From a virus: DNA of 64,000 bases. The notes under the pieces are model-generated. The model worked only from the letters and a program-made list of their open reading frames with translations. It was not told the origin of the DNA and ran no database searches. Shown here piece by piece: positions 1,100-61,565 of the stretch. Numbering within the stretch: position 1 is the first letter of the stretch; the number at the start of each line of letters is the position of its first letter. The DNA lies in IMG/VR virus record IMGVR_UViG_3300035698_006348, positions 1 to 64,000 of that record; one strand, written 5' to 3'. The translations under genes and the position numbers were made by a program.

Positions 1100-2031
1100 T
1101 GAAACTTATATGCCAATATTGTGGAAAAGAATATAAATCTCTCGGAAGAAATAAAAATCAGAAATATTGTTCACGAGAATGTTATGGTCTTGCATCTATT
1201 GTAGATATTCCAACAAGCGTTTGCCCAACATGTGGTAAAGAATTTGAGTGGAAGAGGGCACATAAACCACAGAAATATTGTTCTAGGAAGTGTTCATGCG
1301 AATCTCTAAAGGTTGATACTACTAGACTGTGCGAATACTGTGGAAAAGAATATGATCCACATTTTCAAACAAGCAAAAGAAAATATTGCTCTCATGAATG
1401 TGCAAACAGAGCTATGGATACTAGAATAACAACTAAATGCGAATCATGTGATAAGGAGTTTTTAGTCAGACCTCATGATTATGCTAATGGATTAGGTAGA
1501 TATTGTAGTAACGAGTGTAGACATCAGGCTAAGAGAAATAAAATTAAACGGACTTGTGTAACTTGTGGTAAGGAATTTTATACAATTCAAAGTGAAATAA
1601 ATCGTAAAGGTGGAAAGTATTGTAGTAGAAATTGCTTTTTCCTCAGTGATTCTTTTACTGGACATGGAAGAGGTCGTGGTGGAAAACGAGCCGATTTAAA
1701 TAATATATATTTTCGCTCCTCATGGGAAGCGAATTATGGGAGATATTTAAATAAACTAATTGGAACATATATTATAAAAGGATGGGAATTTGAGCCTGAT
1801 GTTTTTGAATTAGATGGTGGAAATTATTTACCTGACTTCAAGATAACGAATATGAAAAATGAAATTAGTTACCATGAGGTTAAGGGTTATATGACAAAGA
1901 AAGCACAAAATAAAATGGATGTTATGAAAAATACCTACCCAGATATTAAAGTAGTGCTAATAAATAATCTTGTATATAAAAGAATAGAGAAAACTTATGC
2001 AAGTTCAATTCCAAATTGGGAGGTGAGATAA
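1099..2031 (+). CDS. Tandem zinc-ribbon PD-(D/E)XK endonuclease, probable free-standing homing endonuclease
   Basis: A 310-residue protein in two halves. Residues 1-185 hold five C-x2-C...C-x3-C modules of about 35 residues each (YCGKEY/KYCSRECY type), a likely DNA-binding array. Residues 195-290 carry a nuclease signature: S-S-W-E-A-N-Y helix with the first acidic residue, W-E-F-E-P-D, Y-L-P-D-F (catalytic Asp) and Y-H-E-V-K-G (E-x-K). This E..PD..ExK order fits Vsr/PD-(D/E)XK homing enzymes found scattered in phages. Its AT-rich composition contrasts with the G+C-rich tail genes on both sides, and it splits the tail module with 1-base overlaps, all typical of a mobile endonuclease. It has no role in virion assembly that I can see. 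Confidence 0.8.
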   Translation: MKLICQYCGKEYKSLGRNKNQKYCSRECYGLASIVDIPTSVCPTCGKEFEWKRAHKPQKYCSRKCSCESLKVDTTRLCEYCGKEYDPHFQTSKRKYCSHECANRAMDTRITTKCESCDKEFLVRPHDYANGLGRYCSNECRHQAKRNKIKRTCVTCGKEFYTIQSEINRKGGKYCSRNCFFLSDSFTGHGRGRGGKRADLNNIYFRSSWEANYGRYLNKLIGTYIIKGWEFEPDVFELDGGNYLPDFKITNMKNEISYHEVKGYMTKKAQNKMDVMKNTYPDIKVVLINNLVYKRIEKTYASSIPNWEVR

Positions 2032-14473: not shown

Positions 14474-15583
14474 ATGGGATCAATGAAATATCCAACGATT
14501 GATACTATCGGTTTGGAGATAGAAGTTGAGAATCTCTCTCAACGGAAACTACAAAACGAAGTCAATCCAGCATTATTTTCAATGGTGCATGATGCATCTA
14601 TTGAAAGCAATTCCCCAGTGTTTGGTAATATTCCTATTGTTGTAACTGGGGGAGGTAGAATCCCCAATGTAGGTACTTCTACAATTGGTACTGAGTTAGT
14701 ATCAATTCCTATGGTGATAGAAGGAAACTTTGATCTTCTTTCCCACCTAAAAGAAGTAACTAATATCTTAATTATGAATGGAGAGCCCTTAGAATCATTT
14801 AGAGCATCAACCCATGTCCACGTAAATATTCCCTGGAACTTACAAATTCTAAAGAATATCATGATTTTAGGTGGACATTTAGAAGATTTGTTTTTTAGAA
14901 TTGGCGGTATGGGGTCTACTTTCAGAGGATTGAAAGTAAACAATAGTCAATTCTGTAGACCAATTACTCTTTGGGGACCGCAGTGTGCTGAAGGCAGAAA
15001 CGGTGTATTCCAATTATTTAACATTGAAGATTTATTAAGGTCTAGAACCACATCTGGGTTCTGGAATAGATATGGAGGTATAAATATAACTAATAGTCAG
15101 GTATCAAGATATCACCCAGTTAGGTACACATGGTTAAATCTATATAGTTTGTTATACCATGGTACTCTGGAATTCAGAGTGTTCAATAAAAATTTGAATC
15201 CTCAATTTATCTTGGCAATCATTGATCTCTGCCAATCTTTCTCAAGAACAATTTTGAAAGAATTACCAGAAAATTTGGAAATGAACTCAGTATTTATTTC
15301 TAATGGTAATCAGGAAGAACGCTTTGAAAATATGATTGAGTTACTAGATATATCAGAATCCAAAACACTTCGGACTATCTTTAACCGCAGTAAAGAAGTT
15401 GTATTGGAAGAGGGGTATATCTATAGCCATCTAAATAGGGATACAAGATATAACTTTAACAGATATCAACCAAAGATTGTAACAAACGTATCTCGGTTTG
15501 AAATAGCTGATATCCATCATATAAATCGTGGAAGTCAGTATCTGGAAGATAACGTCTCTAGACCACTAGAAGAAGGAGAATAA
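14474..15583 (+). CDS. Amidoligase (Amidoligase_2 type, COOH-NH2 ligase superfamily)
   Basis: 369 residues, start with AAAGGAG. Motifs in order: G-L-E-I-E-V-E (residues 13-19, metal/ATP-binding acidic strand), H-D-A-S (about 39), G-T-E-L-V-S-I-P (about 73), A-S-T-H-V-H-V-N (about 110-117) and T-L-E-F-R-V-F-N (about 232-239). This is the glutamine-synthetase-like fold of predicted amidoligases that join a carboxylate to an amine with ATP. It is directly followed (3 bp) by a class II glutamine amidotransferase and an ATP-grasp protein, a set known from other phages. The substrate, whether peptide, protein side chain or small molecule, cannot be read from the sequence. Confidence 0.85.
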   Translation: MGSMKYPTIDTIGLEIEVENLSQRKLQNEVNPALFSMVHDASIESNSPVFGNIPIVVTGGGRIPNVGTSTIGTELVSIPMVIEGNFDLLSHLKEVTNILIMNGEPLESFRASTHVHVNIPWNLQILKNIMILGGHLEDLFFRIGGMGSTFRGLKVNNSQFCRPITLWGPQCAEGRNGVFQLFNIEDLLRSRTTSGFWNRYGGINITNSQVSRYHPVRYTWLNLYSLLYHGTLEFRVFNKNLNPQFILAIIDLCQSFSRTILKELPENLEMNSVFISNGNQEERFENMIELLDISESKTLRTIFNRSKEVVLEEGYIYSHLNRDTRYNFNRYQPKIVTNVSRFEIADIHHINRGSQYLEDNVSRPLEEGE

Positions 15584-15586
15584 CAT

Positions 15587-16717
15587 ATGTGCCAATTAAT
15601 ATTTGTAAAGAGTAAAGATCCAAAAATTGCAGCGACAATTACCTATTTACAGATGTACATTGATTCAATAACTGAGCACCAGGATGGTTATGGTGCATAT
15701 GCTAATAATAGTCTCTTTGTTAGTGATGGAGTGGCATCAAACATCACAAATTTACATAGAATCCTTACAAAAATGAATGCCACTGAGTATATTGGGCATG
15801 TTAGGAAAGCCACAAGCTTTAGAGGAAAGAAAGATGTTAAAAACTCTTTCTCCCATCCATTTGATAAAGAAGACTTTACTCTTGCCCACAATGGAACACT
15901 AACATGGGATAAAATTGTAGATGAGACTGCTTTTGAAGCAACAAGACCAGAAGTAAAAAGTATGATAGACTCTGATGTATTTGCAACTTATCTCCAAAGT
16001 GTTTATAATGGCAATATGGTGACCAGTGTACAGCTTGCAATGCGAAAGTTTAATGGTAAATTCGCTTTTATTATATTTGATAAGACTGTCCAAAAACATT
16101 TTATTGTCAGAGGAAAAGCCACATTGTACAAAGCACTTATCACCGCTGGGGAAGAAACAATACTAATTATAAACACAGAAAAAGAATCTCTAAAACGTGG
16201 GCTAGTTCTTACCATAAATATACTAAACACTTATGGATTAAAAGTAGAAGACTTTCCGAAAATAGAAGAAATTCCCGCAGAAACAATTTCTATTATTGAT
16301 GGATATGACGTAAAGGAGGTAGGAAAAATAAAAGAAACCACAGCAACTTACTATCACTCTACTTACAAAGAGAGTACATATATAGCTCCAGCATCAAGTT
16401 GGCAGTATGCTCCACCAACTGGGGCTAAGAAGTTAATTGATTACTGTGTTGACTTTATACGGGACACTGGATTAAGTCTTGCTGAACTAGATATGGTGGC
16501 AAAAGTTGTATTGAATACACCCCTCTTTGGAATGAGGAAAGAAGACGTGGAAAAACTTACTCTTGTTTTGGATGAGCTTCAGAAATTAAACTCACAAGAT
16601 AAGATAAATGCATTTTTATATGGAGATTGTAACCTGACTAATTTACAGTATCCATATATGCTAAATGAAGTAGACGAATTATATGGAGGCCAGAGTGCAG
16701 ATACTATATTTATCTAA
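15587..16717 (+). CDS. Class II glutamine amidotransferase (Ntn hydrolase)
   Basis: 376 residues. Cys2 is the N-terminal nucleophile after Met removal (M-C-Q-L). Further class II signatures: G-H-V-R-K-A-T (about 65), H-P-F, L-A-H-N-G-T-L (about 100) and D-S-D-V-F (about 128), then G-K-F-A-F-I-I-F-D. The enzyme would release ammonia from glutamine and pass it to a partner synthetase. Residues 200-376 lack a synthetase domain, so the acceptor enzyme must be separate; the amidoligase and ATP-grasp neighbours are the obvious candidates. It overlaps the ATP-grasp gene by 23 bp. Confidence 0.9.
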   Translation: MCQLIFVKSKDPKIAATITYLQMYIDSITEHQDGYGAYANNSLFVSDGVASNITNLHRILTKMNATEYIGHVRKATSFRGKKDVKNSFSHPFDKEDFTLAHNGTLTWDKIVDETAFEATRPEVKSMIDSDVFATYLQSVYNGNMVTSVQLAMRKFNGKFAFIIFDKTVQKHFIVRGKATLYKALITAGEETILIINTEKESLKRGLVLTINILNTYGLKVEDFPKIEEIPAETISIIDGYDVKEVGKIKETTATYYHSTYKESTYIAPASSWQYAPPTGAKKLIDYCVDFIRDTGLSLAELDMVAKVVLNTPLFGMRKEDVEKLTLVLDELQKLNSQDKINAFLYGDCNLTNLQYPYMLNEVDELYGGQSADTIFI

Positions 16718-17453
16718 ATTTAAGCCATCAGCAAGAATCCTTCGGGATGCTTTGAATAATGCTGGAGTTACAACCACACTTGCAGGTGAGTGTGAAGACC
16801 TAAATGGCCCATTTATTAGATATGGTCATAAAGGTAGTATTGGGATTAGAAATAATGCTGTTGATTTAAATTTTAATACTCGTAAATTTATTGAAGCTTC
16901 TGGAAATAAAATGATTATGTCAAAAACATTTACAGAGGCTGGAGTAGTAACTCCACAGTTCTACCAAATGACTAAAGATCCAGAAGATTATCCAGTAATG
17001 GTTAGAACAACTCTAAGTGGGTTTAAAGGAAGAGGGATTTATATCTGTGAAACAACAAAAGAGTTTGAGTCCTTCTGCGACCAAAAAGGAAGCTTCTGGA
17101 CACCATTCTTAAATATCTCAAGGGAATATCGGGTTCACGTTGTGAATAACCAAATTGTAAAACTCTTTAAGAAGGTATACTCTGGTGAAGAACCAGAAGA
17201 TTACCCAATTAGGAATATGGATAATGGATACCACTTTTCTATTAGAAATAATATGAATCCATTTGTAAAATTGGTTCAGTTTGTTGATAGAATTTGTGAA
17301 GTAATGCCTATTGGGTTTACTGCAATGGATATAGGATTCTTGGAGAATGAAAGAAAATATATCCTGATAGAAACAAACTCTGCTCCAGGGCTAAATGAAA
17401 ACTCAGCTGGCCTCTTTGTGGATGAGATAAAAAGGAGACTAGATGATCTTTAG
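16695..17453 (+). CDS. ATP-grasp ligase
   Basis: GTG 16695 is preferred because GGAGG lies 5 bp upstream; the ATG at 16683 overlaps that site. 252 residues. An N-terminal Rossmann-like strand, then the ATP-grasp core: P-V-M-V-R-T-T-L-S-G-F-K-G-R-G-I (Lys and Gly-rich loop), E-Y-R-V-H-V-V, and a C-terminal D-I-G-F-L...I-E-T-N-S-A-P-G-L (metal-binding Glu and Asn). The last motif is typical of RimK- and D-Ala-ligase-like enzymes, which join amino acids through an acyl phosphate. Probably works with the amidoligase and the glutaminase next to it. It overlaps the RuvB-like gene by 11 bp. Confidence 0.85.
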   Translation: MQILYLSKFKPSARILRDALNNAGVTTTLAGECEDLNGPFIRYGHKGSIGIRNNAVDLNFNTRKFIEASGNKMIMSKTFTEAGVVTPQFYQMTKDPEDYPVMVRTTLSGFKGRGIYICETTKEFESFCDQKGSFWTPFLNISREYRVHVVNNQIVKLFKKVYSGEEPEDYPIRNMDNGYHFSIRNNMNPFVKLVQFVDRICEVMPIGFTAMDIGFLENERKYILIETNSAPGLNENSAGLFVDEIKRRLDDL

Positions 17454-18207
17454 AGGGCAAACACGAATAATGAGGGAGGTGGATATTCTAACCAAAAACA
17501 TTATACGTGGATACCCTATCAACATTGCTCTGATTGCTCAGAGTGGCATGGGAAAAACAACTCTAGGTTTAAAAATATTGGGTGATGTGGGCATTCATCA
17601 ATCTCAAGTAAGTGGACCACCTGATTTTAATTTTGACTTCGGAAAAAGACACCATCTTTTTGATGAAGTACATGAATTAAAATATCCAGAAGCTTTATAT
17701 GAGATTATGGATAGAGGGGACTACACAATGCTCTTAGCCACAAATGAAAGTGGTGATTTAAAAGAACCGCTATTAAACAGGTGTATTCCATTAATCTTTG
17801 AGGCTTATACAGAAGGAGATTTATATAATATCCTTGGAGATATCATTGGAGACGAACTAAGTAAAGAGTTGTATCCAACTATAATTGATTCTTGTAAGAG
17901 TAATCCACGGGAATTGAAAGTATTAGCAGAACGATTGCTATATGTTAATCGGGAAGTAAAACTTACATCTGTAAGAATGTTAAAAGATGTAATGGAAGAT
18001 ATACTAAATATATACGGAGGCTTAAACCAGAATGATAGAATATATCTTGACAAGTTAGATTCTCTAGGTGGAATGGCTAGTCTTACTTTATTAGAAAATA
18101 GCACTGGGTTATCGAAAAGCTCATTGTTACGTTTAGAGCCAGAACTAATAGCCAATGGGTATATTAAAATTTCCTCACGTGGAAGAGTTTTAGTCAAAAA
18201 ATATTAA
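17443..18207 (+). CDS. RuvB-like AAA+ ATPase with winged-helix C terminus
   Basis: 254 residues. Walker A A-Q-S-G-M-G-K-T-T (about 32-40), Walker B H-L-F-D-E-V-H (about 71-77), sensor 1 L-L-A-T-N-E (about 99), N-R-C near 111 as the possible arginine finger, and a C-terminal winged helix (about 200-254) like that of the RuvB motor, which drives Holliday junction branch migration. It is shorter than cellular RuvB (about 330-350 residues) and no RuvA is present. The phage also has a Hjc-like resolvase at 41711. Its place inside the amidoligase operon is odd; it could be a remodelling ATPase for that system. Confidence 0.8.
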   Translation: MIFRGQTRIMREVDILTKNIIRGYPINIALIAQSGMGKTTLGLKILGDVGIHQSQVSGPPDFNFDFGKRHHLFDEVHELKYPEALYEIMDRGDYTMLLATNESGDLKEPLLNRCIPLIFEAYTEGDLYNILGDIIGDELSKELYPTIIDSCKSNPRELKVLAERLLYVNREVKLTSVRMLKDVMEDILNIYGGLNQNDRIYLDKLDSLGGMASLTLLENSTGLSKSSLLRLEPELIANGYIKISSRGRVLVKKY

Positions 18208-18225
18208 GAATTATTTGGAGGTACA

Positions 18226-19170
18226 ATGAAACAAATTTTTAATTACAACACAAACAGCAAGTATCTTTTACACTCACCAGCTTTTAAAGAAATATCTGCG
18301 GTTTTAAAAGATAAAGGATTTGAAACTGTTTACCAGCTGGAAGTTGATCCTAATATTACATTCCTAATAGAAATAGAAAAAGATGACCTACGTCTTTATA
18401 AACCATCTACAGCCCCAGTTGAGGCAGGATATATTGAGATGGCTTATAAGAATAATGAGTATTCTAAATTTATTGGGCATATGCTATTAGTTGATAAATA
18501 CGGAACTAAGCTATATGATTTTACAGACAAAACCCCACTCAGTATAGGGGTTAAAAAATGTGAGGTTTTCTATGATTTGGGATCAGATATGCTGGAAGAA
18601 TCACCACGTATATTCTTTTTTAAGGATACTGCTATTGTTAATGACAGCAGGAAAACAAATATATTTGCCATGTTAAAAATAATCTATATGTCTGCTGGGC
18701 TTATGATACCCCAAAAGGAAACTGAATTCGGATCTGGAGTTGTATTTGGTATCATAAGGAAATTGGGAGGAATGGAAGATAAAACAGTACTTACAATAAA
18801 ACTGGCAGAACCAGTGTTATATCCAAGGAAAAAATTAACAAAGAATCCAAAAGAAAGTAAAAAACTTGGGAAAATTGGTGCAAAAATTGCAAGAAAACTT
18901 GTGAAAGATAAAAGAAAGGCAGAAACGAATGTATTGACATATAGTACTTCCATGAAATTATCAGAACTCCTAAAAACAAAATTGGGAGAAGGAGCTGAAA
19001 TTCCAACAGTTATTAATGACATAGAATTGGATAAAGTGGAATCAATGGCTGTTAGAAAAGGACGGCTATACATAAAAATTAGTACTAATGACCCAGCCAC
19101 ATTTGAAAAGGTTTATAGCACCTTCAATGATGCGGCAATAGCTTTATATACGATCATAGGAGTAGACTAA
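18226..19170 (+). CDS. Unknown 314-residue protein in amidoligase operon
   Basis: Start with TTGGAGGTAC upstream. Residues 1-190 are mixed alpha/beta; residues 200-235 are extremely basic (K-K-L-T-K-N-P-K-E-S-K-K-L and K-D-K-R-K-A-E), likely to contact nucleic acid or an acidic partner; 240-314 form an alpha/beta end. No enzymatic motif seen. It overlaps the following Zn protein by one base. Confidence 0.6.
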   Translation: MKQIFNYNTNSKYLLHSPAFKEISAVLKDKGFETVYQLEVDPNITFLIEIEKDDLRLYKPSTAPVEAGYIEMAYKNNEYSKFIGHMLLVDKYGTKLYDFTDKTPLSIGVKKCEVFYDLGSDMLEESPRIFFFKDTAIVNDSRKTNIFAMLKIIYMSAGLMIPQKETEFGSGVVFGIIRKLGGMEDKTVLTIKLAEPVLYPRKKLTKNPKESKKLGKIGAKIARKLVKDKRKAETNVLTYSTSMKLSELLKTKLGEGAEIPTVINDIELDKVESMAVRKGRLYIKISTNDPATFEKVYSTFNDAAIALYTIIGVD

Positions 19171-19529
19171 TGTTATACCATGCAAAATGTGGTGGTAGTA
19201 TCACTATTGATATTGCCCAAAATATATCCACGGTAGCTTCGTTTGGAATTGGTTATTCAGAGCTAAGAACAAGTCTTATTAAACTAAACTTCAATAAAGG
19301 TGCAGCAAATGCCAGGGCGTTCTATTGTGTAAACTGCGATAGAGTCATTGAGCCAGAAGAAGTTGTCGGTAAGTGTATGCACTGTGGAGAAACATTCCCA
19401 GCTGATAAGCTGTATATTCCAGAATGTGGTGGAGTATACTGTGAAAAATGTGCTAAAGAAGAGTTTAAATCATACAAGAAAAAGAACGTACTTGTAATTC
19501 TCAAAACTTGTAAACTGGTAATTAAATAA
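19170..19529 (+). CDS. Double zinc-ribbon protein
   Basis: 119 residues. The C-terminal part has C-V-N-C (about 52), C-M-H-C-G (about 69) and C-G-G-V-Y-C-E-K-C (about 88-96), enough for two zinc sites. The N terminus contains a further C-G-G. Likely a small nucleic-acid- or protein-binding adaptor within the amidoligase operon. Confidence 0.65.
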   Translation: MLYHAKCGGSITIDIAQNISTVASFGIGYSELRTSLIKLNFNKGAANARAFYCVNCDRVIEPEEVVGKCMHCGETFPADKLYIPECGGVYCEKCAKEEFKSYKKKNVLVILKTCKLVIK

Positions 19530-19541
19530 AAGGAAAAACAA

Positions 19542-20438
19542 ATGACAAAGTATGGAACTGACCCAGAAGTGTTTATCTCTACTGAAGTAATTCCAAGTAG
19601 TTATGATGAAAATTTTATTAAAGATATTCCGTTCTGTGATATTCCCATCTCACTAGAACGAGAGGGCAAGATTAAACCAATGGATGAAGATGTAAGACAC
19701 CCATTGTATTTTGAAGGAAAAGACTATAAAGTTATTGGTGATGGTGTAGCGTTAGAAGTTAATTTGAAAAGACCACACACTGATCCAAATGAAATGAGAG
19801 AAATTGTTTTAGACGCTTTAGCCACAGTAGAACTGGAGGCTGGGCTGAAGTGTGAAGTTATCCCAGTTGTAAACTTTGATTATCAGAGATTCTGTACTCA
19901 AGAGAATATGATGGATGAACGGTTTGCGACATCTGTTATCTTTGGCTGTGACCCAGATGAAGATGCATTCGATGTATACGACTGTAATACCATAGATGCT
20001 ACAAGCCATCCATATAGATATGGTGGTGGTCATATTCATCTCTCCGATATCGGAGAGGCTGTAGAATATCCAAGAGTGATTACTAAATTATTAGCACTTA
20101 CAGCTGGAAACTTCTGTAACGCTAATACTAAATTCCCTGAGTTAACGAAGGTACGTGGCGAACTATATGGTAATCCCGGAAGATTCAGAAGGCAGAGTTA
20201 TGGAAATGGAACAAAAGGTGTTGAATACCGTTCACCATCCAATGAGTGGCTTACCTTTGAAAAGAGTACATTTGAATTACTATTTAAATGGATTGATACA
20301 GCAGTAATCTTATTCAATAGCCCAGATGGTAAAAGTGTATTGGAGAAGTTTGAATTTCCAACATTCTCTGCAATAAAAAGCTGTAATGCTGAAAAATCAA
20401 ATGTTATTTTGAAACAATTGGAAAAATATCTACAATAG
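19542..20438 (+). CDS. phiEco32-type amidoligase (COOH-NH2 ligase type 2)
   Basis: 298 residues. Motifs: G-T-D-P-E-V-F (residues 5-11), G-D-G-V-A-L-E-V-N (about 73-81, acidic strand), F-G-C-D-P-D-E-D (about 133), G-G-G-H-I-H-L-S-D (about 161-169), then G-N-P-G-R-F-R-R and V-E-Y-R-S-P-S-N-E-W (about 228). These match the phage-specific amidoligase family named after phage phiEco32. A second, differently built amidoligase in the same operon as gene 14474 suggests two ligation steps or a heteromeric ligase. Its substrate is unknown. Confidence 0.88.
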   Translation: MTKYGTDPEVFISTEVIPSSYDENFIKDIPFCDIPISLEREGKIKPMDEDVRHPLYFEGKDYKVIGDGVALEVNLKRPHTDPNEMREIVLDALATVELEAGLKCEVIPVVNFDYQRFCTQENMMDERFATSVIFGCDPDEDAFDVYDCNTIDATSHPYRYGGGHIHLSDIGEAVEYPRVITKLLALTAGNFCNANTKFPELTKVRGELYGNPGRFRRQSYGNGTKGVEYRSPSNEWLTFEKSTFELLFKWIDTAVILFNSPDGKSVLEKFEFPTFSAIKSCNAEKSNVILKQLEKYLQ

Positions 20439-28000: not shown

Positions 28001-28038
28001 AAAAAGAGCCCGATGGGAAAGTCCATCGGGCTCTTTTT
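28001..28038. terminator. Bidirectional terminator between convergent operons
   Basis: A perfect 16 bp inverted repeat (28001-28016 with 28023-28038), 6 nt loop, with an A run on the left arm and T run on the right arm, so it works in both directions. It sits between the rightward gene ending at 27980 and the leftward RNR ending at 28050. Confidence 0.95.
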
Positions 28039-28049
28039 TTATGGTTATA

Positions 28050-30353
28050 TCATTTATTCAGTATCTGGAAAAACTTAGATTTATCTCTGTAAATTGTGCC
28101 TCCTTTTAACTCTGACTTCCACATATAAATATACATAGCAAATACTTCATCTACTGTAGTATTAGTTGGACAATTAATTGTTTTACTAATACTATTGGTA
28201 ATATACTCTTGCCATGCTGATTGCATGTTTACATGGTCTTTCCAATCAAGATCATGAGCAGTAATAAATACTTCCTTAAGCTTATCTGGAACTCCATCTA
28301 TATCTTGTAGTGAGCCTTTAGCTATAATTTCTTTCTTTATTTCCTCTAAATTTTCAACCCCATATTCTTCTAGTTTTCTAAATAGAATTGGGTTTACTTC
28401 TACAATCTTATCCTTTACAGAATTACCAACACCCTCTGTTATATATCTAGTGTAAGCTAAAGCAAAGAATGGTTCAATACCAGAATTTACTCCAGCTAGT
28501 AAAGCAATACTTCCTGTTGGTGCTATTGATGTAACTGATACATTCCGTAATGGAAAGTCAGTACGTTCAATAGGTTTATTTATTCCAGATAGTGGGGAAT
28601 TTAATACTCTATTTACTGATGAGAAGTCAATCTGCTCCGCATCATAATCAGGAAATGTTCCGCGTTCTTCTGCAAGTACATTTGACTCCAATATAGCAAA
28701 GAATGAAATAAACCATCCTAAATAATTTGCGAGAGTTATAGCATCTTTGGAATTATATGGCATCTCCAGCTCTGCTAACAAATCAGCAAACCCCATAACA
28801 CCTACACCAAGCCTACGCAATGCTTTGGATGTAGTGTTGATTTCATCAATCTGGGTCTCCGAGATCGTCTGAACATTATCAAGAAATCTTACGGACTTTC
28901 TAACTAAAAACTCTAAGAACTCTAAATTGAGTGCCTTCGTGTTAAAATCATATACACTATGTAAGTTAATACTACCTAAGCAACATGATTCATGTGGTAA
29001 TAGGGGGACTTCACCGCATGGGTTGGTCGTATCTATATCTCCCTTATACTTCCTAACTATATTATCTTTGTTTACTCTATCTAAGAATAGAATTCCTGGA
29101 TCTCCAGACTCCCAAGCCCGTAAAGCAATATTATATAAAATAGCTCTGGCTGGTACAGTTTTTACTACCTTCTTATCAACAACAGATAATAAATTCCAAT
29201 TCTTATCCTCAATAACTGCTTCCATAAAATCATCTGTAATTCCAATAGAGACATTGAAATGAGTTAGTTGATTGTTCTGTAATACATGAGATAAATCTTC
29301 AATGTTTCCAGCATCCTTAGAATACGCCTGGAATTCACTAATCAGGCGTTTATTTTTTTCAGTTAATGTAGATTTATAATCTATAAATTCAATAACATCT
29401 GGATGAGTAATATTCATAATACCCATCTGTGCTCCTCTTCTAGAAGCCTGTTGTATTACTTCTCCTGTATGGTCAAACAAGGTCATAAAAGATAATGGAC
29501 CAGAATTATGTGAAATAAATCCATTTGCAATAAAATTATGAAACGGCTTTTTCATCGCTAAATCATACACCTTCTCAATACCAACATATTCAATGGAAAT
29601 AATCTTATCAAAGTATATTTCCTTGTGTAATCTTGGATTTCCTACTGCAATTAAGTCTCCAACAGAGAATTGTTTTGTTTCTTGCCAATCATGTTTAGAA
29701 TTTAAAAACCTATGATTACTTGTCGCCTTTATTGAATATCCGTCTTCTGTGGTTATTTTATAGACCTTTTCCTCTCCATTGTAAATAATATCCACTATAC
29801 TATTTAGACCCAATGAATTATTTTCTTTCATACACCTAATAAGAGGAAAAACCTTGCCTCTAGACCTTCTATCAAATAATGTGGAAAGAGTTACTTCCTC
29901 TTTTTGTTTCCATCTTGCACTATCTTTATATACAACTGTGTCACCAGTCAAACAAGCCTTACCTCCAGTAGTTTTTATCTCAGCACCCTTTTCTCTAATA
30001 CGAGAGAAATTATATCCTACTCCCCCTCCCCAAGCAAACACTTCAGCAGACTTACCTAAAGCATCATATAATGATTTTCGTGAGTCCTCTATTGGAATCA
30101 CAAAGCAGTTCATAAGATTCTTTATACCAGTACCAGCATTAGCTATAACTCTCCCACCTGGAAGAAAAGCATTATTACTAATCATATTGAAGAAGTCTCC
30201 AGCTAACTTGGAGACTTCTTCTTTTGTTTTACCATATGAAAGTTCTGCATTAGCCACTGTTGAACTTACTCTCCAGCAAGCCTCTTCCCATGTTTCTTTT
30301 GGATCCACAGCATACTTCATCTTGAATATTCTGTTTGCTACATCATTTAACAT
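28050..30353 (-). CDS. nrdJ: Class II (B12-dependent) ribonucleoside-diphosphate reductase, mini-intein inside, C-terminal redox tail missing
   Basis: 767 residues including a 150-residue intein (134-283). Extein motifs: G-G-R-V-I-A-N-A-G-T and M-N-C-F-V-I-P (redox Cys, residue 83), G-P-L-S-F-M, S-R-R-G-A-Q-M-G, N-P-C-G-E-V-P (radical Cys and Glu) and C-C-L-G-S-I-N-L, then A-P-T-G-S-I-A-L and N-C-P-T-N. This is the NrdJ pattern; it makes dNDPs with adenosylcobalamin and needs no radical partner subunit. The protein ends at G-G-T-I-Y-R-D, where normal NrdJ continues to a C-terminal Cys-rich redox tail. A matching tail is encoded at 48842-48970. Last gene of the leftward operon. Confidence 0.93.
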   Translation of the reverse strand: MLNDVANRIFKMKYAVDPKETWEEACWRVSSTVANAELSYGKTKEEVSKLAGDFFNMISNNAFLPGGRVIANAGTGIKNLMNCFVIPIEDSRKSLYDALGKSAEVFAWGGGVGYNFSRIREKGAEIKTTGGKACLTGDTVVYKDSARWKQKEEVTLSTLFDRRSRGKVFPLIRCMKENNSLGLNSIVDIIYNGEEKVYKITTEDGYSIKATSNHRFLNSKHDWQETKQFSVGDLIAVGNPRLHKEIYFDKIISIEYVGIEKVYDLAMKKPFHNFIANGFISHNSGPLSFMTLFDHTGEVIQQASRRGAQMGIMNITHPDVIEFIDYKSTLTEKNKRLISEFQAYSKDAGNIEDLSHVLQNNQLTHFNVSIGITDDFMEAVIEDKNWNLLSVVDKKVVKTVPARAILYNIALRAWESGDPGILFLDRVNKDNIVRKYKGDIDTTNPCGEVPLLPHESCCLGSINLHSVYDFNTKALNLEFLEFLVRKSVRFLDNVQTISETQIDEINTTSKALRRLGVGVMGFADLLAELEMPYNSKDAITLANYLGWFISFFAILESNVLAEERGTFPDYDAEQIDFSSVNRVLNSPLSGINKPIERTDFPLRNVSVTSIAPTGSIALLAGVNSGIEPFFALAYTRYITEGVGNSVKDKIVEVNPILFRKLEEYGVENLEEIKKEIIAKGSLQDIDGVPDKLKEVFITAHDLDWKDHVNMQSAWQEYITNSISKTINCPTNTTVDEVFAMYIYMWKSELKGGTIYRDKSKFFQILNK
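29505..29954 (-). mobile_element. Mini-intein in NrdJ (no endonuclease)
   Basis: Residues 134-283 of the NrdJ reading frame. It begins with Cys (C-L-T-G-D-T block A), has T-S-N-H-R-F (block B His) and ends F-I-A-N-G-F-I-S-H-N, followed by Ser as the +1 residue. Removing it joins T-G-G-K-A to S-G-P-L-S-F-M, an unbroken conserved RNR block. At 150 residues there is no room for a homing endonuclease, so it is fixed or degenerate but should still splice. Confidence 0.95.
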
Positions 30354-46016: not shown

Positions 46017-47894
46017 TTACTTTATCCAAAAATCTTCTATTTTCGAGCTAACCTCTGCTGGAATTTTACCAAGAAAAGGTTGCTCTGCTTCTTTCATACT
46101 CTTAGCTATAAATGCTTCTGCCTCCTCAGCTATATCTTCTTTTACAAGACAAGATACTTCGTCATGAACAGTCAAAATAATTCGTAAATCCTTTCCAAAT
46201 GGATTATCATAAAAAATATTACAGATAGCAATTTTCATAATATCTGCACCAGTTCCCTGAATAACAGTATTGAATGCTTGTCTGCGTAAACTACTTATAT
46301 GCTTATCCCTCTCTTTATACCCATCAACTCCAGGAAAAAATGTTTTCTTTGGAAGGTATCTACGTCTTCCAAGAAGTGTAGAAGTATATCCTATCTCTAC
46401 TGCTTTGTCTTCAACAACGTCTTTCACTAAAAATAATGTTGGATGCCCAGCTTTATATTTATTTAGGTAATCTCTAGCCAATTGAACACTAAAGCCAAAA
46501 TTATGTGCTAGACCATATTCTGTAGAACCATAAATCAAAGCAAAATTATAACCCTTAGCAATCGTTCTCTGTTCTTTTGTTACTTCCTCATATGGAGTTT
46601 CAAATATCAAACTAGCAGAGGTTGTATGTAAATCAAGATTATTTACGTAAGCAAATATCATGATTGCTTCTTTTGTAAAATTAGCTGTTATCCGTAGCTC
46701 TTGTTGAGAATAATCAATAGTAATTATTTTATATCCTTTTGGTGCTCTAAAACAAGAACGATAACTTATATCTGCTGGAATATTTTGTAAGTTTGGATTA
46801 GACGAACTGAATCTTCCAGTATGAGCGATTAGCTGATTAAAATTGGCATGTAAATTTCCTGTAGAGGGCTCAATATTCTCAATAAACTCTTCTCCATAAG
46901 TGGAGACAAGTTTTGCAAATTCTCTGTATTGTAGTAAATGCCCTATAAACTTATTCCCTTCTCTGAATGGTTTTAGATACTTTGCTCCAGTAGACTTTAA
47001 CAATAAGCCAGTATCAGCTAATGCCAACTTTATTTGAACGTGAGACCCTGGATTGAAAGCATATTTGAAATAAGACCTAATTGCCTCTGGCTTAGTAATA
47101 TTTACTAAAACCTCTCTTGCTTTTTTCGTCTTTGCTCCAGCAATCTTATATCTATCTGCTACTTGTAAAGCAGAATCAAAGTTTTCTAATTGTAGCATGT
47201 CAGTTAGAGATTCAAGAGCTAATTCTTTTTGTTCAATTGCTTGTGGCTCAGCTTTTTCTAATAAAGCTAACCAAGCTTCTTTATCAAATGGAACACCTTT
47301 TATTTCCATATCAACAACTACAGGTAGTAATCTCATTTCTAAGTCCATTACTTGACCAAATTGTGCAATAAGCTCACTCTGAATCTCATAAATCTCTGTA
47401 GTGTATTTTACATCAAGAGCGGAGTATTGTAATTGATCTGAAGTTAATTCAGTCAATTCTCCAAGCTCATAAAATTCTTTTCTAACAGACTTATCTATTT
47501 CTACACCTAAGTATTTTAAATATAAATCTCCCATAGAATAAAATCGTTTTGAATCTTCGGCACCATTTCTTAAAATGGTTTCTGCATACATTGTACAGTA
47601 TAATTTTTTTAGAAGTATACCAGTCTTAGCAAAGATTACAGAGACATCAAATTTTATATTGTGCCCTATAACAAATTTATTTTCTATAAGAGCGATAAGA
47701 TAATTAATATTTTTAAATTTTAAACAATCGAAAACAAATATTTTATCTCCAATTCCTATTTGTATAACATACAACTTACAAGTAATAGGATTTAATGAGC
47801 TAGTTTCCACATCAAGAACAACCTTACTATACTTACAGCAGTAATCAATAAAAGTCCCCATTTGAATAACATCTGTAATTTCTATAAATTCCAT
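46017..47894 (-). CDS. polA: DNA polymerase I family (family A) with 3'-5' exonuclease
   Basis: 625 residues from ATG 47894 (AAAGGAGAG 4 bp upstream; the in-frame GTG at 47909 overlaps that site). Exo domain: V-L-D-V-E-T-S (Exo I, about 30), H-N-I-K-F-D (Exo II, about 78), S-A-L-D-V-K-Y (Exo III). Polymerase: G-R-F-S-S-S-N-P-N-L-Q-N-I-P, motif A D-Y-S-Q-Q-E-L-R (about 391-398), motif B R-T-I-A-K-G-Y-N-F-A-L-I-Y-G (about 440), motif C V-H-D-E-V (about 576). No 5'-3' exonuclease domain. Proofreading replicative polymerase of the phage, first gene of the leftward operon. Confidence 0.97.
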   Translation of the reverse strand: MEFIEITDVIQMGTFIDYCCKYSKVVLDVETSSLNPITCKLYVIQIGIGDKIFVFDCLKFKNINYLIALIENKFVIGHNIKFDVSVIFAKTGILLKKLYCTMYAETILRNGAEDSKRFYSMGDLYLKYLGVEIDKSVRKEFYELGELTELTSDQLQYSALDVKYTTEIYEIQSELIAQFGQVMDLEMRLLPVVVDMEIKGVPFDKEAWLALLEKAEPQAIEQKELALESLTDMLQLENFDSALQVADRYKIAGAKTKKAREVLVNITKPEAIRSYFKYAFNPGSHVQIKLALADTGLLLKSTGAKYLKPFREGNKFIGHLLQYREFAKLVSTYGEEFIENIEPSTGNLHANFNQLIAHTGRFSSSNPNLQNIPADISYRSCFRAPKGYKIITIDYSQQELRITANFTKEAIMIFAYVNNLDLHTTSASLIFETPYEEVTKEQRTIAKGYNFALIYGSTEYGLAHNFGFSVQLARDYLNKYKAGHPTLFLVKDVVEDKAVEIGYTSTLLGRRRYLPKKTFFPGVDGYKERDKHISSLRRQAFNTVIQGTGADIMKIAICNIFYDNPFGKDLRIILTVHDEVSCLVKEDIAEEAEAFIAKSMKEAEQPFLGKIPAEVSSKIEDFWIK

Positions 47895-47929
47895 ATACTC
47901 TCCTTTCACTGTTTGTTATTGTGTACATA

Positions 47930-47958
47930 ATTATAACATACTTTTACTAAAAAGTCAA
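47930..47958 (-). promoter_or_regulatory. Leftward promoter P-L1 for polymerase operon
   Basis: Minus strand TTGACT (47953-47958), 17 bp, TATAAT (47930-47935). Start expected about 30 nt before the polA ATG. Nearest of two similar leftward promoters. Confidence 0.9.
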
Positions 47959-47995
47959 GGTTTATTAGAAAACTCTAATGTTAGGTAATAACTTA

Positions 47996-48024
47996 TTGAC
48001 AAATTGATAAAAATATGGTATAAT
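47996..48024 (+). promoter_or_regulatory. Rightward promoter P-R1
   Basis: TTGACA (47996-48001), 17 bp, TATAAT (48019-48024), a full sigma-A consensus facing the tRNA and morphogenesis side. Back to back with P-L1. Confidence 0.9.
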
Positions 48025-48107
48025 CTATAAGTACTAACAAACAATAACTAATTAAAGATTAAAGATAAGTAATAGCAGAAAATGTTTTTAATCTAATCAC
48101 TGTATAT

Positions 48108-48136
48108 ATTATAACACACTTCTTCTAAAAAGTCAA
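48108..48136 (-). promoter_or_regulatory. Leftward promoter P-L2
   Basis: Minus strand TTGACT (48131-48136), 17 bp, TATAAT (48108-48113). Shares the flanking CTAAAAAGTCAAGG and TTAGAAAACTCT words with P-L1, so the promoter block has been duplicated. Confidence 0.9.
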
Positions 48137-48184
48137 GGGTTAATGCAGTTACATTAGAAAACTCTCATAAATCTACTTGTACCC

Positions 48185-48213
48185 TTGACAAATATTGAAA
48201 AGTGTGTTATAAT
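48185..48213 (+). promoter_or_regulatory. Rightward promoter P-R2
   Basis: TTGACA (48185-48190), 17 bp, TATAAT (48208-48213). Second full-consensus rightward promoter, about 90 nt before the first rightward gene. Confidence 0.9.
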
Positions 48214-48315
48214 AGTACTATAAGTAATTAAGTACTTAAACATTAAATACTTAAAGATTAACCATTAAAAGAAAGTAACTAAGTAATTGCGGAAAAAATC
48301 CGCATGGAGAAAATA

Positions 48316-48528
48316 ATGTCTAAATATAAATGTTCCATCTGTCATAAAGAATTTACAAATGTTTTGATGGCAGATAGTTGTGAAAAGAGTCATGATATTA
48401 TGTATGTTCCATTAACAAAGGCAGATATTCTTCGCTTAATTCAGTTTATTATAACAAAAGATGAGAAATTACTAACTGAATCATTGGTAACAACTTTACA
48501 GAAATATTCATCTACTCTGAATAAATAA
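48316..48528 (+). CDS. Small C2H2-like zinc-finger protein
   Basis: 70 residues from ATG 48316 (GGAGAAAATA upstream; ATG 48304 overlaps the site). C-S-I-C-H-K-E-F (5-12) and C-E-K-S-H (about 22-26) give a CCCH/C2H2-like single zinc finger, followed by a helical region. First gene after the rightward consensus promoters, so it is probably expressed early; a transcription or host-takeover role is plausible but unproven. Confidence 0.65.
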   Translation: MSKYKCSICHKEFTNVLMADSCEKSHDIMYVPLTKADILRLIQFIITKDEKLLTESLVTTLQKYSSTLNK

Positions 48529-48569: not shown

Positions 48570-48785
48570 GTGAAAGTTATATGTCCTATTTGTGATAAAG
48601 AGATACTAAAGACTGATTCTAAGCAGATTGTAGCTATTGATCGTCCAGATAAGATGAATATATTCTGCCACCTATCATGTATAAATAATACAAATTTGGA
48701 GGAATATCTAAAAGATAATAAAAACTATACTAAATTCCTTTCTATACATACTGCTAGGAAAATAAAAATAAATATGAAAAAATAG
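48570..48785 (+). CDS. Small zinc-finger protein
   Basis: 71 residues from GTG 48570, which follows AAGAGGTAATCCAT; the ATG two bases earlier is out of frame and closed by TGA. C-P-I-C-D-K (5-10) and C-H-L-S-C (about 33-37) form a zinc site; basic C terminus (R-K-I-K-I-N-M-K-K). Unknown function. Confidence 0.55.
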   Translation: MKVICPICDKEILKTDSKQIVAIDRPDKMNIFCHLSCINNTNLEEYLKDNKNYTKFLSIHTARKIKINMKK

Positions 48786-48791
48786 TAATAT

Positions 48792-48821
48792 TTGACAAAA
48801 TGTGCACTTTCATGGTATAAT
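48792..48821 (+). promoter_or_regulatory. Rightward promoter for the NrdJ-tail gene, tRNAs and ncRNA
   Basis: TTGACA (48792-48797), 18 bp, TATAAT (48816-48821). Start expected near 48828, about 14 nt ahead of ATG 48842. It can serve the short genes, three tRNAs and the structured RNA that follow. Confidence 0.8.
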
Positions 48822-48841: not shown

Positions 48842-48970
48842 ATGACAGAAAAAGATGAGGTTGAAGAGGTAGAGGAAGAATGTTGCCCTGAATGTGGATC
48901 CCCATACTATGTAAAAAATGGTAGATGCTCAACATGTTTATCTTGTGGATTTTCTCTATGTGGTATTTAA
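48842..48970 (+). CDS. Stand-alone C-terminal Cys-rich redox tail of class II ribonucleotide reductase
   Basis: 42 residues, with GTGGAGAAAATAA before ATG and its own promoter. After an acidic helix (E-V-E-E-V-E-E-E) comes C-C-P-E-C-G-S-P (residues 14-21), then C-S-T-C-L-S-C-G-F-S-L-C-G near the end. The CPECGS...GxCxTCxxCGxSxC spacing is that of the extreme C terminus of full-length NrdJ, which binds zinc and carries the Cys pair that re-reduces the active site. The NrdJ body at 28050 lacks this part. Known: the tail's role in NrdJ. Inferred: that the small protein acts in trans. A generic zinc ribbon is the alternative. Confidence 0.7.
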   Translation: MTEKDEVEEVEEECCPECGSPYYVKNGRCSTCLSCGFSLCGI

Positions 48971-49071
48971 AACTATACCGTTTACTTTCATTTGACCAAA
49001 CTTGTAGAGCTTGTGGATCAATTATTACTGGGCATAGAAAATACTGTCCTGTTTGTGGGGCAAGAATCTAA
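48958..49071 (+). CDS. Tiny zinc-ribbon protein overlapping the NrdJ-tail gene
   Basis: 37 residues from ATG 48958, overlapping the previous gene by 13 bp with no clear ribosome site of its own, so it would depend on coupling. C-R-A-C-G (16-20) and C-P-V-C-G (about 30-34) form a complete zinc ribbon. It ends 6 bp before the first tRNA. Real expression is uncertain, but four correctly spaced Cys in 37 residues are unlikely by chance. Confidence 0.5.
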   Translation: MWYLKLYRLLSFDQTCRACGSIITGHRKYCPVCGARI

Positions 49072-57906: not shown

Positions 57907-58824
57907 ATGAATAAAAAACTTTTAGTAGGAATAGGTACTTTCGGGCTATTGGAATATACAAAACTAGCAATTAAATCAATTAAAGATACAGTAAAGAAAA
58001 CAGACTATGATATATTACTTATAGTTGGTAAGAATGGGGATGTTGAAACAATAAATTATGCAAAGGCAAATGGACTAAAACATATAGTCCATACAACTAA
58101 TAAAGGATTTCCGGCCTCTATAAATGATATGTATGATTATGCTTGGAAAGATAATGCTTATGAATATTTGCTTATTATGGGAAATGATGTTATAGCTTAT
58201 CCATATGCTGTTGATTCAATGGTAGAGGTAGCTGATACCACATTATATGATTGGGTATGCTCAAGAGAATTTAGTGTGCAAGCTCTTGTAAAAGCATTTC
58301 CAGTAACTTCCTCCTATTTTACAGGAAAAGCTTTCAAGTATAAATTTGGAAGTGGCCCATGTTGGGAATACTTTGATAAGTATAAAGAAAAGATTACAGT
58401 TAGCACCTCTGGTATGTCTGATACTCATAACTTAGGGTTATATAAGAAATCAATTTTTGATAAGGTTGGATATATTGATGTAAATTTCTATCCAGCCTAC
58501 TTTGAAGATAATGACTTTGCAAGGCGGTCTATGTTAGCAAATGTGAAATCTTGTACAGTTGATAATGCTTTTTATTTCCATTTCTGGAGTAGAGTTATAA
58601 ACGAAGGCTCTGGAGGATCAACTCCAAAATATTTCTCAAATAATCAGCAGTATTATATACAGAAATGGGGTGGACTCTTTACAAAAGAATTATATGATTT
58701 ACCATTTAATGGAAATGGGCATACCTTAGATGGAGACATATTTTTAAAATCAGAAATAAAAATAACGTCTAGAGAGGATGAACTCAATATAGCTAAATAT
58801 TGGACACATCTTGGGAGTGGTTAA
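57907..58824 (+). CDS. Family 2-like glycosyltransferase (GT-A)
   Basis: 305 residues, AAAGGTAT before ATG. N-terminal G-I-G-T-F, T-N-K-G-F-P-A-S-I-N-D (about 63-73), I-M-G-N-D-V (about 94, GND in place of DxD), Y-F-E-D-N-D-F-A-R-R (about 199, catalytic ED). Transfers sugar to the growing glycan or to a virion protein. Its stop overlaps the terminase start by one base (TAATG), which couples glycan and packaging genes. Confidence 0.87.
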   Translation: MNKKLLVGIGTFGLLEYTKLAIKSIKDTVKKTDYDILLIVGKNGDVETINYAKANGLKHIVHTTNKGFPASINDMYDYAWKDNAYEYLLIMGNDVIAYPYAVDSMVEVADTTLYDWVCSREFSVQALVKAFPVTSSYFTGKAFKYKFGSGPCWEYFDKYKEKITVSTSGMSDTHNLGLYKKSIFDKVGYIDVNFYPAYFEDNDFARRSMLANVKSCTVDNAFYFHFWSRVINEGSGGSTPKYFSNNQQYYIQKWGGLFTKELYDLPFNGNGHTLDGDIFLKSEIKITSREDELNIAKYWTHLGSG

Positions 58825-61565
58825 TGGCACTAATTGAGAATGTGAATCAAGAGGATTTAATTCTTTATGAAATATTAAAGCATCCAGTATTATCTGGTGA
58901 GTTCCTTCAAAACTTAGATAGACTCGAACATGAAGATATTTTTAAGTTTGAGTGGTATCAGGTGGATTTTTTAGCTGATTTTGCTAAGCAAGTGTCTATT
59001 GCTTGTGGAAGGGCTGTTGGGAAGACAGTTAGTCTAACTAATATGACTATATGGTTACTTATAAATAAGATTTTCCCAGAAGATTATATAGTATATACAG
59101 TTCCAAGTAAGGTTCATTTAGATCCAGTTTTTACATCTCTTACTAGAATGTTTAGAAGTAACTCTTTATTAAAGAATTTTTTACAGGCAAAGAAAGGGAT
59201 AAATGGTTCTGATTTTACAATAAACCTTTTAAATGGCACAACACTAATGTGTCGTATAGCTGGCCAATCTGGAACTGGGGCTAATGTTATTGGTTTACAT
59301 ACACCATTTATAATTCTTGATGAGTGTATTGTTGGTACTCAGCATGTTGCTATGCCAACTTGTAATAAAACAGCAGATAATGTAAAAGTTGGAGATTCCA
59401 TATTATCATGGAATGGTGAATCTATTGAAGAGGATAGAGTTATAAATGTTCGCCGTACCAAAAGAGAGCAAAAAGTTTTAGAGGTTGTATATGATTCTGG
59501 GAAAATTAGAGTAGGAGAAAATCATAAAATATATACAGATAATGGATATGTTAAAGCCTCAGAGTTAGTAGTAGGTGATAATATATACTATACTGAAACT
59601 ACTAGAAGTAATCTGCCATGGACGAAGAAAGATTATAAAATTTTGGAAAAGAATGTTCAAGTTGGAATTCGTGTAAAAGAAGTAGCAAAAATACTAAATC
59701 GTTCTGAGCAGTCTGTTTTTAGTAAAATAGAGAAAAAATATACTTCTACCCACAATTTATTTTATTCTAAGCCCCTAACAGAAAAGCAATTAGATATAAT
59801 TAGGGGATCATTATTAGGAGATGGGTCTACAGCAATATACACAAAAACTGCATCATACTCTACTAATCATAGTTTAAAACAAAAAGAGTACGTTGATTGG
59901 TTATATACTGAATTGAAATCAATTACTAGATGTAAACCACGAATTTATAAAAATGGTGGCTATGGTGAATATAACTATGCCTTTTCAACGCTAGGTCATC
60001 CAGAGATTTTTGATATTGTTTCAAAATTATACATAAATGGTAAAAAGACAGTTACACGAGAGTATTTAGATAAATTATCAAAATTAGCATTGGCTGTATG
60101 GTGGATGGATGATGGATCAAATAGTGGTGTATTGTCTTCACATTCTTTCTCAAAAGAAGAAAATGAAATTGTAATTGAGTGGATGAAGGATACTTTTTCA
60201 ATAAATTGTAAATTATATAAAGATAAAAAAAGAAACTTATATTTTATAATATTTCCTGCAAAATCTAAAAGAGAACTAAATAAGCTTTTAGCCCCCTATA
60301 TGCATAAGGCTATGAAATATAAAGTAGGTATAGGGAAATATAATAATGAATATACCTTACCAAATATTGAACTTATTGGTAAAGGCGAAGATAATAAATC
60401 ATTAGTAAAAAAAGTAGTACTTAATATTAGAGAGGTAAATACAAGGGCTGCTTATCTTTATAACTTTGAAGTTGAAAAGAATCATAACTATTTTGTAAAT
60501 GGTATTCTTACTAAAAATTCTGGTTACTACCCCTGGGGCACATGGTTAGAGTTACAACCAACACGTAATACTTGGACACCTGGAAGTAGGATTATTACAT
60601 CAGGAGTTCCAACAGGTTTACGGGAATCAAATGTTCTGTATAATACAGACATGGTAGATGGGGGATATATGAAACATAGAATAAGTGCATATGATAACCC
60701 ACGATTTACAAAAGAAGACGAAGAAAATGCCATAGCTCAATATGGTGGAAAAGATGGTGAGGATTTTACTCACTTTATTATGGGTAGGCATGGTAAACCA
60801 TTATATTCATTATTTGACAGATCCTTATTTAAGGTTGAACCCTATCCAGTATACAAACTGAAGATAAATGGTCTAAAAATGACAGGGGATATTGCTGAGT
60901 ATCTTACAAGAATAAGAACAATTCCAAATACTGATGAAGGTGTTGAAACAATTATTGGAATTGACTTAGGTTATACTGAACCGACAGCTATTGTTGTAAT
61001 GTATAAAAATAAGAAAGGCAGATTTAAATTTCATTGTAGAATAGAATTGAAGAAAGTTCCATATCCTATACAAGAGATTATAATAGATTTACTAGATACA
61101 AAGTTTGCTCCTTTTAAAATAGGAATTGATAAAGGTAGTTCAGGTATTTCAGTAATCCAGAACCTAACTAGTAATTTAAAATATGGTCATAAAAATTATG
61201 AAGATATTATTGTACCAGTTGATTTCTCATCTTCAATAGTAATTGGTTTAGATGCAGATGGTGCAGAAATAAAATCAAAGACAAAGCCATTCTCTACTTC
61301 AATTTTACAAGATTACTCAAATAATCATAAAATAGTTTATTCGTCAACAGATTTGGAAATGATAACTGAACTTGAACGAATGTCATATACTAAAACCCCA
61401 TCTGGTGATATTGTATATAAAACTTTAACCCAAAGAGGTGGGACACGGGGAGAAGATCACTTTACTGCTGCTATGCTTTGTTTTTCATTATCAAATTATT
61501 TGTATACAGATTATATAAATATGCGAAGAACTAGAAAATTAGCAGCCCCAACATGGATACGTTAA
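58824..61565 (+). CDS. terL: Terminase large subunit interrupted by an intein
   Basis: 913 residues from ATG 58824 (GGGAGTGG upstream), of which 168-565 are an intein. ATPase: C-G-R-A-V-G-K-T (61-68, Walker A with Arg), F-I-I-L-D-E (162-167, Walker B, the intein follows the Glu), and S-G-V-P-T-G (motif III/coupling). RNase H-like nuclease: G-I-D-L-G-Y-T-E-P (about 711, first Asp), I-G-I-D-K-G-S-S-G (second Asp), D-H-F-T-A-A (late Asp). It cuts and pumps DNA into proheads. Spliced length is about 515 residues, normal for TerL. Confidence 0.95.
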   Translation: MALIENVNQEDLILYEILKHPVLSGEFLQNLDRLEHEDIFKFEWYQVDFLADFAKQVSIACGRAVGKTVSLTNMTIWLLINKIFPEDYIVYTVPSKVHLDPVFTSLTRMFRSNSLLKNFLQAKKGINGSDFTINLLNGTTLMCRIAGQSGTGANVIGLHTPFIILDECIVGTQHVAMPTCNKTADNVKVGDSILSWNGESIEEDRVINVRRTKREQKVLEVVYDSGKIRVGENHKIYTDNGYVKASELVVGDNIYYTETTRSNLPWTKKDYKILEKNVQVGIRVKEVAKILNRSEQSVFSKIEKKYTSTHNLFYSKPLTEKQLDIIRGSLLGDGSTAIYTKTASYSTNHSLKQKEYVDWLYTELKSITRCKPRIYKNGGYGEYNYAFSTLGHPEIFDIVSKLYINGKKTVTREYLDKLSKLALAVWWMDDGSNSGVLSSHSFSKEENEIVIEWMKDTFSINCKLYKDKKRNLYFIIFPAKSKRELNKLLAPYMHKAMKYKVGIGKYNNEYTLPNIELIGKGEDNKSLVKKVVLNIREVNTRAAYLYNFEVEKNHNYFVNGILTKNSGYYPWGTWLELQPTRNTWTPGSRIITSGVPTGLRESNVLYNTDMVDGGYMKHRISAYDNPRFTKEDEENAIAQYGGKDGEDFTHFIMGRHGKPLYSLFDRSLFKVEPYPVYKLKINGLKMTGDIAEYLTRIRTIPNTDEGVETIIGIDLGYTEPTAIVVMYKNKKGRFKFHCRIELKKVPYPIQEIIIDLLDTKFAPFKIGIDKGSSGISVIQNLTSNLKYGHKNYEDIIVPVDFSSSIVIGLDADGAEIKSKTKPFSTSILQDYSNNHKIVYSSTDLEMITELERMSYTKTPSGDIVYKTLTQRGGTRGEDHFTAAMLCFSLSNYLYTDYINMRRTRKLAAPTWIR
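59325..60518 (+). mobile_element. Large intein with LAGLIDADG endonuclease in terminase Walker B
   Basis: 398 residues (168-565 of the reading frame). Block A C-I-V-G-T-Q; block B G-E-N-H-K-I-Y; two LAGLIDADG-type motifs, R-G-S-L-L-G-D-G-S and L-A-V-W-W-M-D-D-G-S; C-terminal N-H-N-Y-F-V-N-G-I-L-T-K-N, then Ser +1. The penultimate residue is Lys instead of the usual His. Removal joins L-D-E to S-G-Y, restoring the Walker B helix. Confidence 0.95.

Follow-up and report, generated by a model that had tools for sequence, protein, structure and literature searches.

The window, that is, the whole 64,000-nucleotide stretch analysed (bases 1-64000 of a virus record of 86,463 bases), carries a class II ribonucleotide reductase (RNR) gene, nrdJ, whose product ends without C-terminal cysteines, and a separate 42-residue gene for a zinc-finger tail of the NrdJ type. 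The two genes lie 18.5 kb apart on opposite strands. The split between body and tail is real and is conserved in a phage lineage. A separate matching end piece suggests that the enzyme is assembled from two parts, and, judged from the sequences, the window body and the small protein probably form a two-part class II RNR belonging to one phage lineage.

The features of the nrdJ locus were as follows:
28001 to 28038: intrinsic terminator past the nrdJ stop, with a 17-pair stem and a T run
28050 to 30353, minus strand: nrdJ, class II ribonucleotide reductase body, C-terminal cysteines absent (TIGR02504, PF02867/PF00317)
29505 to 29954, minus strand: mini-intein in nrdJ, residues 134-283 (150 residues; PF14890 E=8.5e-16, TIGR01445)

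The nrdJ reading frame encoded 767 aa before splicing. It was identified as class II by TIGR02504 (566 bits; cut-off 400) and covered this model to the last position (606/606), while the Pfam matches PF02867/PF00317 represented the RNR barrel. Alignment with the Thermotoga maritima NrdJ showed that the radical cysteine and the active-site cysteine pair were kept (Cys 83, 446 and the 457/458 region; motifs NCF, NPCGE and CCLGS). The T. maritima protein also aligned to both flanks of the mini-intein, an element absent from the initial annotation of this DNA. The C-terminus of the window NrdJ read ...YRDKSKFFQILNK, without a C-terminal cysteine, and the final residues before the stop were GGTIYRDKSKFFQILNK. 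The single cysteine among the last 60 residues lay within the barrel motif TINCP and none was present past YRD, so that the initial annotation was right in describing a frame without the C-terminal Cys pair. The terminator began about 12 nt past the nrdJ stop and therefore left no room for a fused tail downstream, which ruled out a tail lost through a frameshift or a recoded stop. A similarity search of the viral contigs with the C-extein alone, used as a single sequence, found no relative.

The features of the tail gene were as follows:
48792 to 48821, plus strand: tail gene promoter, TTGACA-18-TATAAT with extended -10 (12/12 match)
48842 to 48970, plus strand: stand-alone NrdJ-type zinc-finger tail, 42 aa, gene C of a three-gene cassette (RNR C-terminal matches, fused-tail model, homologues in the phages G049 and G050)

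The translation of the tail ORF (MTEKDEVEEVEEECCPECGSPYYVKNGRCSTCLSCGFSLCGI) had the cysteine spacing C15-x2-C18-x10-C29-x2-C32-x2-C35-x4-C40. All six tail cysteines were thus present with the spacing of an NrdJ C-terminus, as first proposed, and the promoter and ribosome site attributed to the ORF were both recovered, the latter as GGAG 7 nt before the ATG. The DNA motif of the ORF had a single occurrence in the window, and none of 100 shuffles contained it. The top NCBIfam match was a B12-dependent RNR model, aligned over its last 37 positions (723-759/759, E=0.0012), and two further B12 RNR models also matched at their ends. Among the PHROGs, 23565 (ribonucleotide reductase) matched at its end (171-199/199), as did PHROG 84 (936-973/975); Pfam zinc ribbons reached at most 13 bits.

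A fused-tail model was built from 116 fused NrdJ tails and run over 38,884 ORFs. The tail ORF scored 37.1 bits (E=4e-9), within the range of genuine fused tails, whereas ordinary zinc ribbons in the set scored at most 20 bits and the next window ORF 8.7 bits. The HMM comparison with NrdJ C-termini that had been proposed for the 42 residues thus came out in favour of NrdJ tails over other zinc ribbons. A tail elsewhere in the phage, which would have counted against the split, was sought in the whole 86.5 kb record and no second convincing one was found. A DNA-level search with the small ORF gave nothing useful. A second small zinc-ribbon-like ORF (48925-49071, 48 aa, ...CRACGSIITGHRKYCPVCGARI) overlapped the last part of the tail gene in a different frame and had weak matches only, to generic zinc ribbons.

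AlphaFold modelled the small protein with moderate confidence (pLDDT 78) as a hairpin of the zinc-ribbon type. In a fold search the predicted structure resembled many zinc ribbons, and NrdJ tails were not separable from other ribbons. By alignment, C15, C18, C32 and C35 would be the counterparts of the proposed zinc ligands, and C29 and C40 the redox pair.

The initial annotation had also suggested that the same split be sought in other phages, and it was found there. Viral DNA was searched with a DNA pattern for NrdJ ends (YRD-x-S-x3-Q-[VI]-L with TAA close behind), which had no tail content. This tail-blind search revealed four more cysteine-less NrdJ bodies (L420, L455, L433 and L454). The tail alignment was then run against the entire records of all four. 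The two longer records, G049 (80.8 kb) and G050 (96.5 kb), had exactly one stand-alone tail each (E about 6e-10), of 75 and 62 residues, respectively, and each with all six cysteines. Their top NCBIfam matches were B12 RNR C-termini (E about 6e-6), and the tails of the window, G049 and G050 shared the six-cysteine NrdJ tail pattern (CxxC, CxxCxxC, last C near the C-terminus). The other two records, G047 and G048, are fragmentary: each breaks off within or immediately next to the polymerase gene, short of the position expected for the cassette. Among 43 control virus records with a cysteine-ended NrdJ, a stand-alone tail was found in none; in 37 the tail alignment matched nowhere but within the long NrdJ frame, and in six it did not match. 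Fisher's exact test of split against control records gave 0.00058 with the window and 0.0056 without it, values that overstate independence, since all the cysteine-less bodies belong to one lineage and the association is one event, not three.

The phylogenetic tree placed the five cysteine-less bodies in one clade (SH-aLRT 100) among zinc-tailed NrdJs. They shared about 45-62% identity, with open frames and active-site cysteines kept, and their C-termini remained cysteine-less across the clade though the sequences differed. On the simplest history, the fused tail would have been lost once, a tail gene taking its place. Inteins varied among the bodies: that of L420 and L455 differed from the window's and sat at the radical-cysteine site, whereas L433 and L454 were intein-free. 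A LAGLIDADG homing-endonuclease domain, which is probably another intein, was carried by the terminase large subunit frame of the window (58800-61565, 921 aa), whose G050 homologue had 517 aa.

Comparative genome analysis showed synteny of G049 and G050 with the window phage over the greater part of the genome, and identity was 37-58% for many of the structural proteins. Genes resembling those for ATP-grasp/amidoligase, aminotransferase and clamp-loader proteins formed a block (window 14474-20438) that was conserved in G047, G049 and G050. The tail gene belonged to a conserved cassette, whose remaining features in the window were as follows:
46017 to 47909, minus strand: DNA polymerase A, the divergent gene next to the cassette in the window, G049 and G050 (PHROG 17 E=1.7e-105; homologues 39% identical)
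47930 to 48213: bidirectional promoter cluster (11-12 of 12 matches)
48304 to 48528, plus strand: cassette gene A, small C2H2-like zinc protein (homologues 35-48% identical, same place in G049 and G050)
48570 to 48785, plus strand: cassette gene B, small zinc protein (homologues 27-31% identical, same place in G049 and G050)

In the window, G049 and G050, genes A-B-C adjoined the DNA polymerase A gene on the opposite strand, and nrdJ lay on the polymerase strand, 18-26 kb from the tail gene. The core of gene C was 54-61% identical to the window tail. Genes A and B shared the synteny and conservation of the tail and had no known RNR link. A search with the polymerase reached only distant records, the true relatives being missed by exact peptide seeds; the best match, G030, had a fused divergent tail and no cassette.

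The cluster contained minus promoters at 47930-47958 and 48108-48136 and plus promoters at 47996-48024 and 48185-48213. Taken from 47930 to the tail gene promoter (48821), these promoters can also read leftward into the replication genes that end with nrdJ. The tail was originally described as controlled separately from the body. It does have its own promoter, but that promoter sits in a bidirectional cluster that can also read toward the replication genes ending with nrdJ. Because the cluster can serve both directions, tail and body may both be early genes.

RNRs form an active-site disulfide at each turnover. The radical cysteine and the active-site pair being kept, the window body should do the same while making deoxynucleotides. 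The small separate protein would fold round a zinc ion, and its cysteine pair C29/C40 would pass electrons to the disulfide of the body. It would thereby bind and re-reduce the body in trans, the role played in most NrdJs by the fused C-terminal tail. The final electron donor would probably be the host thiol system, because no thioredoxin or glutaredoxin gene was found in the phage.

Stand-alone tail-like ORFs were also present in other viruses, where the IMG/VR records, many of them fragments, were usually without an RNR. In the records of the complete haloviruses HRTV-7 and HRTV-25, a stand-alone tail was present and an RNR absent; these ORFs (L337:5986-6087 and L339:5983-6087, respectively) lay at the end of the structural genes, that of HRTV-7 being unannotated. 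HRTV-10 (L336) and Hardygib1 (L004/L335) had a tailed NrdJ plus a separate tail-like ORF beside DNA polymerase B. In the related phages L030 and L035, with no RNR detected, stand-alone tail ORFs (L030:2692-2856 and L035:6908-7057) stood just upstream of a terminase-like gene pair. In L170 (8113-9054), a DNA methyltransferase had an NrdJ-type tail ribbon fused C-terminally, and a second stand-alone tail ORF adjoined. In L060, a tailed NrdJ gene was immediately followed by another ORF, of 305 aa, likewise ending in a tail (ORFs 24-938 and 919-3585), and in L052 TSCPD and tail were joined in one chain. Complete C-termini among the best 80 viral NrdJ matches carried the zinc tail or at least one cysteine; an apparent cysteine-less exception, L080, broke off inside YRAGSR and looks like a frameshift. 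No tiny stand-alone tail was found among the best 80 matches in bacterial genomes, which were fused tails and one NrdJb-like chain.

Given such tails in RNR-less viruses, a tail gene alone is no proof of a split RNR. Tails without an RNR, beside an already tailed NrdJ or fused to a methyltransferase count against the two-part reading, as do the single evolutionary event behind the lineage and the equal conservation of genes A and B. Those in complete haloviruses and in IMG/VR records without an RNR, and the methyltransferase fusion, speak for a general zinc-ribbon microprotein, e.g., an early regulator like its neighbours, with no role in nucleotide reduction and with the body re-reduced otherwise. 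Its likeness to NrdJ tails would then reflect descent or convergence. The neighbours A and B, also small zinc proteins, and the generic zinc-ribbon fold predicted for gene C fit this explanation as well. However, all six cysteines are kept, including two that zinc does not need; the best family matches in all three phages are RNR C-termini; and among the surveyed NrdJ-bearing records, haloviruses apart, stand-alone tails occurred only with a cysteine-less body. A general microprotein is rather improbable.

We consider it very unlikely that the host re-reduces the body through thioredoxin, small thiols or a host NrdJ tail, with the small protein serving a host enzyme or being dispensable. A tail-less NrdJ can be directly reduced by DTT (PMC5704485, PMC4520616) and cysteine-less class II C-termini without an explaining NrdJb have been reported (PMC9669993), but host re-reduction explains neither why every long genome with a cysteine-less body of this clade has kept the tail gene nor why records with a tailed NrdJ lack it. 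A decaying, truncated nrdJ relic ridden with an intein, beside which the tail is a coincidence, would account for the intein and the missing tail, but is scarcely credible given five bodies that, at about 45-62% identity, all retain an open frame and the active-site cysteines, cysteine-less ends of differing sequence kept across the clade, and relatives with the intein at another site or absent.

The two-part RNR bears on a wider question. In a survey, about a quarter of the class II RNR C-termini without a zinc finger had no cysteine, and only about 40% of the cysteine-less ones were explained by NrdJa/NrdJb (PMC9669993). Some of the remaining cysteine-less NrdJs could be accounted for by detached minimal tails, which are so short that gene callers can miss them and which can be searched for. 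The two-part RNR suggests, moreover, that the tail proteins standing alone in other viruses may act with nucleotide reductases as redox partners. A broader, unlikely proposal is that the tail is a redox carrier that diffuses and can be exchanged, the zinc-ribbon equivalent of glutaredoxin; it would recharge the body of the phage and perhaps also class II reductases of the host, and the tails of RNR-less viruses would do likewise for host enzymes. The phage pair also offers a compact system for studying the docking of the NrdJ tail, its reductant and tail swapping; even for Stackebrandtia nassauensis the reductant of the tail was not found (PMC5704485).

Split class II RNRs are already known, including that reported in the Thermus phage phiYS40 (PMC3653736); the literature that could be searched contained no description of a bare zinc-finger tail encoded by an unlinked gene on the opposite strand. 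The cysteine-less NrdJa of Pseudomonas aeruginosa relies for thiol exchange on a separate protein, NrdJb, whose binding site is close to the NrdJa C-terminus; dissociation constants of 54-690 nM are reported for this pair (PMC4520616). The phage system resembles NrdJa/NrdJb in that a catalytic chain without C-terminal cysteines is accompanied by a separate chain with the zinc-finger tail cysteines. However, in NrdJb the zinc finger is preceded by a TSCPD/IscU-like domain, and the NrdJb gene adjoins nrdJa, whereas the phage tails (42, 62 and 75 aa) had no TSCPD match and their genes lay 18-26 kb off on the opposite strand in all three genomes. Without this domain and this adjacency, the small protein was rejected as an NrdJb. 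By analogy, it most likely works in trans in the manner of NrdJb, as a minimal unlinked zinc finger without the TSCPD domain. The halovirus CxxC microproteins (Hardygib1, HRTV-7, HRTV-10 and HRTV-25; for the HF1 group, PMC7230728) are likewise small stand-alone ORFs with the NrdJ-tail motif, but these haloviruses have either no RNR or an NrdJ that is already tailed, whereas the NrdJ of the window phage is tail-less. With the fused zinc fingers of S. nassauensis NrdJd and T. maritima NrdJ (PMC5704485), the phage tail shares the six-cysteine pattern and the C-terminal position of the motif; there the tail is the end of the same polypeptide, whereas in the phage it is a separate gene. When the S. 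nassauensis tail was supplied as a separate piece, TCEP activity was not recovered (PMC5704485), which argues against action in trans. In the S. nassauensis enzyme, all six tail cysteines are needed for electron transfer, four as proposed zinc ligands and two as the redox pair, and electrons go from the tail of one subunit to the active site of another (PMC5704485).
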